A DNA stretch of 64,000 bases from Erythrobacteraceae bacterium Alg239-R51 (GTDB lineage Bacteria; Pseudomonadota; Alphaproteobacteria; Sphingomonadales; Sphingomonadaceae), in NCBI GenBank assembly GCA_947331495.1, contig CAMZOI010000001.1, forward strand, positions 310,001-374,000, in the 5' to 3' direction. Of this stretch, positions 27,508-46,843 are shown one piece after another. The notes beneath the pieces were generated by a model that was not told the origin of the DNA, searched no databases, and worked only from the letters and a program-made list of their open reading frames with translations. Position numbers and translations under genes: made by a program. Within the stretch, counting starts at the first letter, position 1. Every line of letters begins with the position of its first letter.

Positions 27508-28410
27508 CTATTTGCCTTCATTCATGATTATCGGGGCATCGCCCGGAGTGGGTTTCCAGCGCGAGTCGGGCGGGAAGACTTCATCTAAGCTGCCTTCCTG
27601 CCAGGCACCGTAGACGGGATTGGGCATGAGGAACCAGCCTGCGCCCCAAAGTTGCGCGTATTCGCCACGCGCGACCATGGCGCGACGGGCCTGAATCGCA
27701 GATTCGTCGGCATTGAAGACATCCGCGAAATCGCCGAGATTGTCTCCCGCCATTGCGACGATGCAATATTTGCTCGCGATTGTCGCGCGGCGTCCGTCCT
27801 TGCGCCCGCCCATCGCGTCATCCCCCCGCAGGAACAGGTTTTGCAGATGGACTGCCTCTCCCGCGCCAGCGGCGGCGATGGCTGCCGCGGTCCCGGAAGC
27901 GGTTTCCGAATTGCGGTTGGTGTTGAAGATCACGGTGATACCCGCCTCGCGCAACCTGCGCAGCCCGGTCACTGCACCTGGCACCGGCTTGGCAATCCCT
28001 GCTCCTTCGCTCGCCCATTGCGACCATTCATCGGGATCGAAGGGACGACCGGTCAGCGCCTGCCAGTATTCGTAGCCGGTATTGAGCAATACTGTCTCAT
28101 CGACATCGAACACCGCCGCCGGGGGTTTGCCCGCACAATCGACCCGCGCGATGCCGCCTGCGACTTCGGGCAGTCCCATCGCTACCGAACGGTCCGGCAT
28201 TTGCGCCGCGCTGGCAATCGCGAAGTCCGCTATATGTCGCCAGGTCTGGATCGAGGCCGCGGCAGCTTCTCCCGAACCGTACAGCCAGCGCATGGTATCC
28301 GGCGCGGGACTGGTTCCGACAACCGAAGCAGGCGGCGCCGAGGCGAGATCGGCCTGCGCCGTTGCACAGCCTGCCAGCAACAGCGCGGCAAGGGCAGCGA
28401 CACTTCGCAT
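27508..28410 (-). CDS. HAD-family acid phosphatase lipoprotein (class B/e(P4)-like)
   Basis: This is a secreted lipoprotein phosphatase of 300 residues. The signal peptide ends in a lipobox (LLAGC, lipidated Cys15). HAD motif I is [14 protein letters not shown] (DxDxT), motif II lies in IFNTNRN, and the C-terminal acidic motif is [10 protein letters not shown]. This matches the e(P4)/class B-C acid phosphatase group that strips phosphate from nucleotides in the periplasm or outer membrane. It sits between the two CoA-transferase subunit genes, overlapping scoA by one base and one base short of scoB. The insertion is odd and its reason is unclear. Confidence 0.85.
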
Positions 28411-29117
28411 CACGCTGCTTCCTTTTCGCGCGTTGTGACAAACTCGATCTTCTTGTCGTACGGCGCGCCCACAATCATGCGCTGAACGTAAACGCCGGGC
28501 AGGTGGATACAGTCGGGATCGAGCGATCCGGTCGGTACGATCTCTTCCACTTCGACCACGCAGACCCGGCCACAGGTGGCGGCTGGCTGGTTGAAGTTTC
28601 GCGCGGTCTTGCGGAATACGAGATTGCCGGTCTCATCTGCTTTCCATGCCTTCACAATGGCGAGATCGGCGAAGATGCCGCGCTCGAGGATGTAATCTTC
28701 CCCGTCGAAGCTTTTCACTTCCTTGCCTTCGGCCACCTGCGTCCCGACGCCGGTCTTGGTGTAGAAGCCCGGAATGCCAGCGCCGCCAGCGCGCATCCGC
28801 TCGGCAAGCGTGCCCTGCGGACAGAATTCGACTTCGAGTTCGCCAGAGAGGAACTGGCGTTCGAATTCCTTGTTCTCGCCGACATAGGACGAAATCATCT
28901 TCTTCACCTGCCGGGTGCGCAGCAGCATGCCGATGCCCTCATTGTCGATCCCGGCATTATTGCTCGCAAAGGTCAGTCCTTTGACGCCCGAATCACGGAT
29001 GGCCTCGAGCAAACGTTCAGGTATCCCACATAAGCCGAAACCCCCGCTGGCGATCGTCATGTCATCGGTGAGAAGCCCGGCCAGGGCAGCGGTGGCATCG
29101 GTATACAGCTTGTTCAT
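28410..29117 (-). CDS. scoA: 3-oxoacid CoA-transferase subunit A
   Basis: This is the alpha subunit (235 residues) partnering scoB. GGFGLCGIPE near residue 25 is the CoA-binding glycine loop, and TKTGVGT and the CGRVCVVEVEEIV region are typical of SCOT/AtoD-like alpha subunits. It is the first gene of a five-gene minus-strand operon. The start is the ATG at 29117. A strong dyad 70 bases upstream may be its operator. Confidence 0.94.
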   Translation of the reverse strand: MNKLYTDATAALAGLLTDDMTIASGGFGLCGIPERLLEAIRDSGVKGLTFASNNAGIDNEGIGMLLRTRQVKKMISSYVGENKEFERQFLSGELEVEFCPQGTLAERMRAGGAGIPGFYTKTGVGTQVAEGKEVKSFDGEDYILERGIFADLAIVKAWKADETGNLVFRKTARNFNQPAATCGRVCVVEVEEIVPTGSLDPDCIHLPGVYVQRMIVGAPYDKKIEFVTTREKEAA

Positions 29118-29186
29118 GGCGAGCGGCTTAACGCCAGTTGTATCCCGTGTCACGCCGCAGCGTATCGCAAGTTCCGTTCCACCGTT

Positions 29187-29207
29187 CTTTGTTGCAATGC
29201 AACAAAG
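29187..29207. promoter_or_regulatory. TGC-rich inverted repeat upstream of the CoA-transferase operon
   Basis: CTTTGTTGC, AAT, GCAACAAAG form a perfect 9-base inverted repeat 70 bases before scoA. It looks like a dimeric repressor site. The TTGCaaTGCAA core is reminiscent of TGC-rich PhaR-type sites of polyhydroxybutyrate control, a tentative match. Confidence 0.55.
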
Positions 29208-29312
29208 TGGCGTATCAGGCACAACTATCCTACTATATGAAAAATAGGAATTTTCTAGCGGCGGTTAGCTACAGAATTGCATATTATGCAATAAAAATTG
29301 TTCTTTACGCAC
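29208..29312. other. AT-rich control region between scoA and cdc48
   Basis: This gene-free stretch is much richer in A and T than its surroundings. It holds TCCTA...TAGGA and TTGCATA-T-TATGCAA (29277-29291) dyads. No open reading frame with a ribosome site is evident. It probably carries the scoA promoter and binding sites. Confidence 0.5.
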
Positions 29313-29341
29313 TTGCACAAATCCCGTGCCGCCAGCATATG
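29313..29341 (+). promoter_or_regulatory. Putative promoter of a small RNA
   Basis: TTGCAC (29313-29318), 17 bases, CATATG (29336-29341). This fits a housekeeping promoter and would start transcription near 29348, just before the structured RNA. Confidence 0.45.
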
Positions 29342-29347
29342 GCGGTC

Positions 29348-29411
29348 ATGCCTTTTAGGCATCCTCTCCCAAGACTCCCAAGCCCGGTTGGTTCGCCAGC
29401 CGGGCTTTTTT
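29348..29411 (+). ncRNA. Candidate small RNA, suhB/MmgR-like
   Basis: About 64 bases form a compact trans-acting sRNA layout. A 5' hairpin (ATGCC, 5-base loop, GGCAT) is followed by a pyrimidine-rich single strand with CCTCTCCC and ACTCCC, which could pair with Shine-Dalgarno sequences. An intrinsic terminator then follows. No open frame feeds this terminator, so it must end a non-coding transcript or a cdc48 leader. The layout and terminator stem recall the alphaproteobacterial suhB/MmgR (alpha-r8) family, but I cannot align it here. Confidence 0.5.
29380..29411 (+). terminator. Strong intrinsic terminator with UUCG loop
   Basis: AAGCCCGGTTGG and CCAGCCGGGCTT pair (one G-U) around a UUCG tetraloop and run into six Ts. 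It lies 105 bases before cdc48 and behind no protein gene on this strand. Confidence 0.88.
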
Positions 29412-29516
29412 CTTGAGTGGAGCCGTCCTGGCTGGACCCGTCGCGCCGCTCGCTCATTGCATCCCTGTATCCTGGTTCCCACGTTGCGGAGCCGAAACAA
29501 TGGGAGATATGCCCTC

Positions 29517-31844
29517 ATGGCCGATGCGGACGCAGCGACGGCGGTAGACGAGAACCAGGTTCGGCTGCAGGTCGCAGCTGCACGGCAGGAAGAAAGCGGC
29601 CAGGGCATCGCCCGGATGCCACGCTCGGCCTTCCAGGCACTCGGCATAACCGAAGGCGATACGGTCGAGATAGCCGGCAAGCGATCGACCGTGGCTATCG
29701 CCATGTCGGCCTATGACGAGGATCAAGCCCTCGAGGTGATCCGGCTGGACGGGCTGCAACGGGGCAATGCCGAGGTCGGTTCTGGCGAGCACGTGAATGT
29801 CAAAGCCGCTGAATCGCGGCCTGCGACCCGGGTCGTCTTCGCACCGGCGAACCGGGAAATGCGGTTGCAGGGTCCGGCGCAGGCGCTCAAGCGCAATTTC
29901 TTTCGCAAGCCGCTGACCGCCGGAGACCTGGTGGCCACAACAGGTCAGCAGCCGGTCCAGAACATGCCGCAGGAGGTGCGGCGAATGTTCAACGCGCCCG
30001 CCTATGCGCTGACCCAGATCCGTCTCAGCGTCGTGTCGACCAGCCCCAAGGGCATCGTTCACATCGACGAGAACACCGAGGTCGAACTGCGCGCCGAATT
30101 CGAAGCACCGCGCGATGCGCGCGCGGTCGTGAACTATGACGATGTCGGCGGGATCGAAGACACGATACAGCAGTTGCGCGAAATGGTCGAACTGCCGTTG
30201 CGTTACCCTGAATTGTTCACCCGGCTCGGTGTCGATCCGCCAAAAGGCGTTCTGCTCCACGGGCCACCGGGCACCGGCAAGACGCGCCTTGCGCAGGCCG
30301 TTGCGAACGAAAGCGACGCCAGTTTCTTCACGATCAACGGGCCCGAGATCATGGGTTCGGGCTATGGCGATAGCGAAAAGGCTCTGCGCCAGGTGTTCGA
30401 GGAGGCAGGCAAGTCAGCTCCGGCGATCGTGTTCATCGACGAGATCGATTCGATTGCACCCAAGCGCGATCGCGTGCCGGGTGAAGCGGAAAAGCGGCTG
30501 GTCGCCCAACTCCTGACATTGATGGATGGGCTTGAGGCCCGGTCTAACCTCGTCGTCATCGCGGCGACGAACCGTCCGGATGCCATCGACGAGGCGTTAC
30601 GGCGTCCGGGTCGGTTCGACCGCGAAATCGTGATCGGGGTGCCTGATGAAAGCGGCCGCCGTGAGATCCTCGGGATTCACACGCGCGGCATGCCGCTTGG
30701 CGAAAAGGTCGATCTCAAGGAGCTGGCCAAGGCCACTTACGGTTTCGTGGGCGCTGATATCGCGGCGCTTGCGCGCGAAGCGGCGATCGATGCCGTGCGC
30801 CGCATCATGCCCAAGCTCGATCTCGACGAGCGCACGATCCCGCCCGAAGTTCTCGATGAACTTTTTGTCAGCCGCGAGGATTTCCTCTCGGCCCTGAAGC
30901 GCATTCAGCCCTCCGCCATGCGCGAAGTCATGGTGCAGGTGCCAAACGTCGGATGGGGCGATGTCGGCGGCGTCGGCGATGCGATCGAGAAGCTGAACGA
31001 GGGTATCGAGCTTCCGATGAAGAACCCGGATGCCTTCCACCGGCTCGGTATCAGGCCTGCGAAGGGATTTCTCCTTTACGGGCCGCCAGGCACCGGCAAG
31101 ACCCTGTTGGCCAAGGCGGTTGCCAAGGAAGCGGAGGCGAACTTCATTTCGATGAAGTCGAGCGATCTGCTTTCGAAATGGTATGGCGAGAGCGAGCAGC
31201 AGATCGCCAGAATGTTCAAGCGTGCGCGAGCGGTTGCTCCCTGCATTGTGTTCATCGACGAGATCGACAGTCTTGTGCCGGCGCGTGGCAGCGGACAGGG
31301 AGAACCGCAGGTGACCGGCCGTGTGGTGAACACCATTCTGGCCGAAATGGACGGGCTGGAAGAACTGCAGTCAGTGGTCGTGATCGGTGCGACCAATCGT
31401 CCGACGCTGGTCGATCCGGCCTTGTTGCGGCCCGGCCGTTTCGATGAGCTGGTCTATGTTGGCACCCCCGACAAGCCGGGGCGGGAGCAGATTCTCGGAA
31501 TTCATACAACGGATATGCCGCTGGCCGACGATGTCGACCTAGGGTCGGTTGCGGGCAAGACCGACCGGTTCACCGGAGCGGATCTGGAAGACGTGGTTCG
31601 CCGGGCCGGGCTCAATGCGCTGAAACGGGCGGGCGACGATGTTCAGAGCGTGACTGCCGGCGATTTCGATGAGGCGCTGAAAGAAAGCCGCGCGACCGTG
31701 ACCGCCAAGATGGAAGCGGAGTACAAGAAGATGCGTGGTGAACTGAAGAAGCGGGCTGCAGAGGCCATGCCGATCGGCTTCATCCACGAGGGAATGGTCG
31801 AATCGACCCGGGACAAGAAGCACGGCAACGACCCGGACGGCTAG
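29517..31844 (+). CDS. Cdc48/VCP-type double AAA+ ATPase
   Basis: This is a 775-residue protein-unfolding ATPase of the Cdc48/p97 class, well known from archaea and eukaryotes and found in some bacteria. An N-domain (1-200, double-psi barrel start [20 protein letters not shown]) precedes D1. In D1, Walker A GPPGTGKT is near 248 and Walker B FIDEIDS near 305. In D2, Walker A is near 521 and Walker B near 578. Both rings keep arginine-finger regions ([13 protein letters not shown]). The C-terminus lacks the eukaryotic HbYX-like tail. The ATG at 29517 follows GGGAG. Its stop shares a CTAG with the convergent mscS gene. Confidence 0.93.
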
Positions 31845-46069: not shown

Positions 46070-46843
46070 ATGCTGCTGAACGAACGTGACGGCAATCCGG
46101 TCCGAACCAATGGCGTCGCGATATCAGCGGGCCGGTTTCTTCTGATTGGCGACCATGCGGGCAACGCGGTCCCGGAAGCGCTGGGCGGGCTTGGTCTCGG
46201 ACCCGCCGAATTGAACCGGCACATCGCTCTCGACCTGGGTGTGCGGGAACTTGGTCTTGAACTTGGCGAGCGTTTGACAGCACCATTTCTTTGGCAGCAT
46301 TTCTCCCGCCTGGTTTGCGACTGCAACCGAGATTTCGCAGATGCGGACTGGGCACCAACGGTCAGCGACGGAACGAACATTCCCGGGAACGCAGGGCTTG
46401 AACCAGCCGAGCTGACGTTGCGGCGCGAAGAAGTGTACGAACCCTATCATCAGGCGGTCGGAAAAGCCTTGGATGCGCGTCGCCGGGCGGAACAGGAAAC
46501 CATTCTCATTTCGTTGCACAGCTTCACCCCCGCGATGGGGGGACGGGAGAGGCCATGGGAGATCGGTGTGCTTCACGACGGGCGAGAGGACCATTTCGCT
46601 CTGGCCCTGCTCGAAAAACTTCGCGGCGTGGATGGCCTCGTTGTCGGCGACAACGAGCCTTATGATATGGACGATACGGATTATACCGTTCCTCGCCACG
46701 CCTATCCCCGCGGCTTGCCTTATGTCGAACTTGAAATCCGGCAGGATTTGCTCAGAGACGCTGTGAAGGTGCACAAGATGGTCGAGTGCCTCGCCCCGCT
46801 CCTGTCTGAATGTAGCGCGTCGATAACGTCAGGGGCCGATTGA
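46070..46843 (+). CDS. N-formylglutamate amidohydrolase family protein
   Basis: It is a 257-residue member of the family that hydrolyses N-formylglutamate to formate and glutamate, the last step of one histidine degradation pathway. The N-terminal LIGDHAGNAVPE, the CNRDFAD segment and HSFTPAMGGRERPWEIG are typical. No other histidine-degradation genes are nearby, so its physiological substrate is uncertain. It is divergent from the transglutaminase pair, 32 bases away. Confidence 0.87.
   Translation: MLLNERDGNPVRTNGVAISAGRFLLIGDHAGNAVPEALGGLGLGPAELNRHIALDLGVRELGLELGERLTAPFLWQHFSRLVCDCNRDFADADWAPTVSDGTNIPGNAGLEPAELTLRREEVYEPYHQAVGKALDARRRAEQETILISLHSFTPAMGGRERPWEIGVLHDGREDHFALALLEKLRGVDGLVVGDNEPYDMDDTDYTVPRHAYPRGLPYVELEIRQDLLRDAVKVHKMVECLAPLLSECSASITSGAD

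Follow-up and report, generated by a model that had tools for sequence, protein, structure and literature searches.

A suhB/alphaR8-family small RNA gene of a Sphingomonadaceae sub-type, conserved together with its promoter

What does an intrinsic terminator end when no protein gene runs into it? The question is raised by a short intergenic segment in a 64,000-nucleotide stretch of DNA from Erythrobacteraceae bacterium Alg239-R51 (the whole of this stretch is called the window here). A sequence-only reading had proposed that the terminator closes a small RNA of the suhB/MmgR class, and the parts on which that proposal relied (TTGCAC-N17-CATATG, a 5' hairpin, a CU-rich stretch and a UUCG-loop terminator with T6) are all present in the sequence where it had placed them (Table 1). 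It is also correct that the terminator is not fed by any protein gene: scoA points the opposite way, and cdc48 begins downstream at 29517.

Table 1. Features of the small RNA locus and its neighbours (positions in the window)
Feature	Position	Strand	Basis
scoA, 3-oxoacid CoA-transferase subunit A, divergent neighbour	28413..29117	-	TIGR02429, 229 bits
Conserved upstream dyad TTGCATATTATGCAA, centre about -65 from the inferred start	29277..29291	+	61 copies
Second conserved element (family TTTCGCACTTGCACAA), overlaps the -35	29305..29321	+	61 copies
-35 hexamer TTGCAC	29313..29318	+	sequence; columns 0.64-1.99 bits
-10 hexamer CATATG	29336..29341	+	sequence
Small RNA gene, suhB/alphaR8 family, Sphingomonadaceae sub-type	29349..29411	+	RF00519 match and own model R1
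5' hairpin UGCCU-UUU-AGGCA	29349..29361	+	fold
Single-stranded seed CAUCCUCUCCCAAGACU, complementary to GGGAGAGG Shine-Dalgarno sequences	29360..29376	+	conservation, predicted targets
CU-rich unpaired stretch	29362-29379	+	sequence and fold
Intrinsic terminator, UUCG loop, T6	29380..29411	+	scan, fold, stem covariation
CDC48-family AAA ATPase (cdc48), downstream neighbour	29517..31844	+	TIGR01243, 892 bits

The RNA gene and its two sub-families

The Rfam suhB search suggested by the sequence-only reading was run, and RF00519, suhB/MmgR (alphaR8), matches positions 29343-29420 of the forward strand over its full length (model positions 1-77) at 49.6 bits, compared with a gathering score of 41 bits (E 3.4e-7 for 64 kb); this is the only gathering-level Rfam match in the whole window. 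The alphaR8 layout of a weak 5' hairpin, a single-stranded seed and a Rho-independent terminator is present, and the RNA would start at about 29348-29349 and be about 63 nt long. Our own model of the sub-type (R1), built from 31 sequences with the window RNA among its members, gives the window RNA 70.7 bits. A coding reading of the locus was dropped because the related copies do not share the ATG at 29348.

The RNA from 29349 to 29412 folds at -27.9 kcal/mol (z -5.1), and none of 200 shuffles folds as well. In the terminator stem (29380-29407, with T6 at 29406-29411) 38 cells are changed on both sides, compared with 11.6 in shuffles and with 0 of 500 shuffles as high, and sliding the stem partners by 1-3 columns leaves at most 7 such cells. 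Weaker measures gave 5 pairs changed on both sides against 3.6 (70 of 500 shuffles as high) and 10 pair types against 8.3 (32 of 500). The four counted pairs of the 5' hairpin are invariant across 31 sequences, and since this hairpin never varies it yields no covariation evidence for or against itself. CAUCCUCUCC is invariant in the window RNA and its 30 best-scoring relatives.

The proposed assignment to the suhB/MmgR class is right, the RF00519 score lying above the curated cut-off; the copy in the mmgR/sisA position, however, is a different locus. Two more RF00519 matches occur in the genome, both below cut-off. One of them, L002 (C1:1887476, 32.2 bits), ends beside an FGase-domain gene (PF05013, 210.5 bits), that is, in the usual mmgR/sisA position next to the N-formylglutamate amidohydrolase (FGase) gene, and has the core UCCUCCCU, read as CUCCUCCCUGAACCUUGGCC. 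The other (28.6 bits, directly 3' of an EF-Tu-like ORF by eye) was set aside as a plain terminator because it lacks a CCUCCC core. The window RNA is not FGase-adjacent, its neighbours being scoA and cdc48 and the FGase-linked copy being L002/L164; its core is AUCCUCUCCCAA (exact core YAGGCATCCTCTCCYAA). In most species, according to PMC12559287, there is one alphaR8 copy, which lies next to FGase and contains the 10-mer UUUCCUCCCU; this 10-mer is absent from the window RNA, which has UCCUCUCCCA. A model built from 10 FGase-linked copies (R2) reaches at least 48 bits in 20 of the 30 best FGase loci from 39 genomes (10 of the 20 having built the model), whereas an R2 search at E up to 1 did not match the window RNA. 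R1 finds L002 at 22.1 bits (E 0.0016), a weak kinship. This contrast between the models indicates that two sub-families coexist, of which the window RNA is the sphingomonad one, and since the mmgR/sisA-position copy lies at another locus, the gene in the window must be counted as its paralogue, with a core of its own.

Of 149 family genomes, 115 contain the exact sub-type core. Across the class, a sample of 289 genomes has it in 4, all of them members of the organism's own family, and none of the 285 other Alphaproteobacteria has it. In a search with stricter filters RF00519 matches 132 of the 149 family genomes at E 1e-3 (above cut-off in 120), and 17 have no match at that threshold. Several genomes carry multiple sub-type copies (G011, for instance, has 5 and G008 has 4).

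Some observations concern the FGase-linked loci themselves. The copies at L151 (1248-1352) and L152 (1160-1268) also match Rfam ar14 (RF02344), though below its threshold (32.8 and 31.5 compared with 58.8 bits), and both have CUCCUCCC. A second FGase-domain gene lies inside the window at 46136-46750 (C1:356136-356750; 152 bits), where the sole gathering-level Rfam match remains the one at 29343.

Conservation of the promoter

The regions upstream of 61 distinct copies, picked by a 13-base RNA match alone, were aligned; RNA columns 29357-29369 are invariant in this alignment by construction. Information content in the dyad columns reaches 1.97 bits per column among the 61 copies, and a strict TTGC-N7-GCAA stands at the fixed place in 37 of 61, compared with 0.04 per 61 in shuffled sequence. 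CGCANTTGC covers the -35 in 56 of 61 copies, the window's own version of this second element being TTACGCACTTGCACAAA, and the distance from dyad to CGCA is 31 bases in 35 of the 36 rows that have both elements. The window's TTGCAC and CATATG are separated by 17 bases; at the -10, CATA is found in 41 of 61 copies and CA[TA][AT], over a wider range, in 56 of 61. Columns between and outside these elements mostly carry less than 0.5 bits, and the 61 copies have common ancestry. A sigma-70 scan of 28000-31000 reported no promoter, so that the promoter is weak by consensus alone, yet it is conserved in related copies. The gene is conserved together with its promoter. At L022 two sub-type RNAs lie in tandem about 360 bases apart (1514 and 1876, oriented), the second without the dyad and CGCANTTGC.

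The dyad fits the T-N11-A pattern of LysR-type sites, with its centre at -65 for an assumed start at 29349, and the vicinity of -65 is the typical location of such a dyad for LysR-type regulators. A regulator of this type probably acts there, judging by the pattern and its placement. T-N11-A is a generic LTTR motif (PMC8844928), and the AbcR1/LsrB system described in the same paper likewise has a T-N11-A type motif 5' of the sigma-70 promoter of an alphaproteobacterial small RNA; the RNA is a different one, however, and the LsrB consensus GCAT-N3-TG-N3-T misfits the spacing of the window dyad by eye. No LysR gene was recognised by eye beside the RNA among the neighbours of 15 copies. Three other sites were considered at the promoter and rejected. 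GCAC-N7-GTGC at 29315-29329 resembles an NtrC dyad, and was dropped because relatives do not keep its second half; an LsrB/VtlR motif at the dyad is off by one in spacing (by eye); and a PhaR/AniA site at the RNA promoter misfits by eye the spacing of the motif as given in PMC12542648. Elsewhere in the genome there are 6 other TTGCA-N5-TGCAA sites, 5 within ORFs and 1 (L115) 5' of an outer-membrane receptor-like ORF. At L115 the dyad (about 1501; C1:711850) is followed at a different spacing by CGCAGTTGCA, and the downstream ORF has PF13620 and PF25183; this could possibly be a second site of the same regulator.

Candidate targets

The pattern GGGAGAGG-N3-10-ATG occurs 9 times in the genome, at 8 sites, compared with 2 occurrences of the reversed pattern. 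Three of the 8 sites open recognisable genes, which encode a PQQ alcohol dehydrogenase, a GPH-like symporter and a DUF559 protein (PF04480) of no known carbon role; the other 5 look like chance. The dehydrogenase matches TIGR03075 and has as its best PDB relative 1kv9, a type II quinohemoprotein alcohol dehydrogenase, and the symporter matches PF13347, with TIGR00792 below its cut-off.

All 9 of the 9 alcohol dehydrogenase loci at 74% identity or above have GGGAGAG ahead of a candidate start, and several of them have more than one such start; since the organism's own dehydrogenase was picked for carrying the motif, the fair count is 8 of 8 others, and the loci share ancestry. The complementarity is conserved at this one candidate target, while the flanks and the GGGAGAG-to-start spacing (4-9 bases) vary. 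As background, 9 of 409 ORFs in the window and 80 scoA loci have GGGAGAG when any candidate start is counted. Among all 30 fetched dehydrogenase loci it is found in 11, all of them among the 22 whose genome has the exact core, compared with 0 of the 8 without it (Fisher p 0.014, on counts made by eye and confounded by identity); 5 of the 8 exact-core-less genomes have an RF00519 match. The predicted duplex with the dehydrogenase mRNA has an energy of -25.0, an unremarkable value that 46 of 500 shuffled RNAs equal or better, and that with the symporter mRNA one of -29.7 (2 of 500). At the symporter, conservation of the site is limited: of the 5 next closest orthologues in which a start could be read, 3 have GGGAGAG (L189, L190 and L192) and 2 do not (L191 and L194); L193 gave no readable start. 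The quinohemoprotein alcohol dehydrogenase is put forward as the best candidate target.

An Hfq gene is present in the genome. At C1:1628608-1629033 (L177, L178) two tandem Hfq domains share a reading frame, each within an open frame of 221 residues, and apparently form a fused double Hfq.

Neighbouring genes, alternative readings and proposed action

The sequence-only reading had found a link to the acetoacetate enzyme encoded by scoA, and thereby to polyhydroxybutyrate (PHB) storage, attractive. The closest scoA relatives are those of Erythrobacter, Altererythrobacter, Croceibacterium and Qipengyuania (87-94%). Thirty sub-type copies, chosen by best Rfam score (L004-L033), have within 1.5 kb both scoA and cdc48 in 14 cases, scoA only in 1, cdc48 only in 4 and neither in 11; conversely, the RNA is present at 30 of 80 loci drawn by scoA, some on short contigs. 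These counts (15 of 30 and 30 of 80) make the neighbourhood lineage-limited; the RNA's place beside scoA looks incidental, and its proximity provides no evidence that the RNA is functionally tied to acetoacetate or PHB. The window also has, 5' of scoA at 29192-29202, TTGCAATGCAA, which resembles the PhaR/AniA sites given in PMC12542648, and a similar motif lies within 250 bases 5' of scoA in 10 of 80 relatives, compared with 48 of 4856 250-base stretches from the fetched loci.

Could the RNA nevertheless be this genome's MmgR orthologue, controlling PHB storage together with scoA? The Rfam family name and score would suit such a role, as would the genes for PhaC-domain proteins in the genome and the adjoining scoA here and in the 30 scoA-drawn loci, and a putative PHB role is possible. 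We regard this reading as improbable, given that the mmgR/sisA-position copy with its own core and FGase neighbour is L002, that R2 passes over the window, that 15 of the 30 best sub-type copies have no scoA within 1.5 kb, and that inspection by eye showed no complement of the seed at the scoA start. MmgR, an Hfq-dependent RNA that acts by base pairing and negatively regulates PHB accumulation, shares the RF00519 name and the same order of elements; the mmgR promoter of Sinorhizobium meliloti answers to NtrC and AniA/PhaR (PMC8401924, PMC12542648), whereas the window dyad has another spacing, and the usual place of the family is better matched by the FGase-linked copy. The sequence-only reading had itself raised a read-through leader of cdc48. 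That the element is such a 5' leader or attenuator, with no separate RNA, would account for the common strand and for a cdc48 that starts about 105 bases past the terminator and comes next in 18 of the 30 copies; it is highly improbable, because the 12 copies without cdc48 within 1.5 kb keep the RNA and 10 of those 12 keep CGCANTTGC (the exceptions being L016 and L025). The RNA is thus independent of its neighbours. A chance terminator-like structure without function might be entertained because a simple scan found 6 terminator-like sites where 2.9 were expected, but the Rfam match, the covariation and above all the family-wide conservation leave this with almost no probability. Finally, a real sub-type RNA might have as its main partner a sponge RNA or a protein in place of Shine-Dalgarno sequences: in Caulobacter, CrfA acts as a sponge of the Sis RNAs and inactivates SisA-D (PMC12559287). 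The mRNA-start complementarity conserved in 9 of 9 close dehydrogenase orthologues speaks against this possibility, which we consider very unlikely.

The reading that we hold with good confidence is that of a free-standing, trans-acting RNA of the suhB/MmgR/alphaR8 family with its own promoter. A sigma-70-like promoter, probably controlled by a LysR-type protein bound at the dyad near -65, would drive an RNA of about 63 nt ending at the T6 terminator; with the help of Hfq, its CU-rich seed would pair with GGGAGAG Shine-Dalgarno sequences and block the translation of alternative-carbon genes such as those of the quinohemoprotein alcohol dehydrogenase and the GPH-like sugar symporter. We infer transcription, regulator, Hfq binding, repression and physiological role, with seed-blocking and Hfq taken by analogy with Sphingopyxis SuhB and SisA. 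SuhB of Sphingopyxis granuli TFA, of 61 nt, binds the thnR 5' UTR in an Hfq-dependent manner, lowers thnR translation and is part of carbon catabolite repression (PMC6563040). By description, not by sequence, it resembles the window RNA as a sphingomonad RNA of the same Rfam-type name and similar length; its target thnR belongs to a tetralin pathway. The family seed of Caulobacter SisA pairs with a 5' UTR (PMC12559287), and C. crescentus SisA-D have the weak 5' hairpin, the CU-rich single-stranded seed, the terminator and several copies per genome; they differ in having the family's 10-mer where the window RNA has its own core, and in that, for sisA-D, PMC12559287 reports no upstream motif held in common, whereas the window sub-type has one.

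The window RNA is a further member of a family already studied as SuhB in Sphingopyxis, SisA-D in Caulobacter and MmgR in Sinorhizobium; searches of the open-licence PMC literature did not find the conserved promoter cassette, the split into sub-types or the candidate dehydrogenase target. As a tentative proposal, which may well turn out otherwise, Sphingomonadaceae might run two alphaR8 RNAs in parallel, one of them ancestral and linked to FGase, the other a mobile and frequently duplicated sub-type that moves as a cassette together with its LysR-type-regulated promoter and represses alternative-carbon oxidation and uptake (quinohemoprotein alcohol dehydrogenase, sugar symporter). The sub-type split separates two RNAs that are lumped under the Rfam name suhB, and, sphingomonads being studied as pollutant degraders, a family-wide RNA with a strongly conserved promoter and a conserved candidate target offers a concrete entry to their carbon catabolite control.
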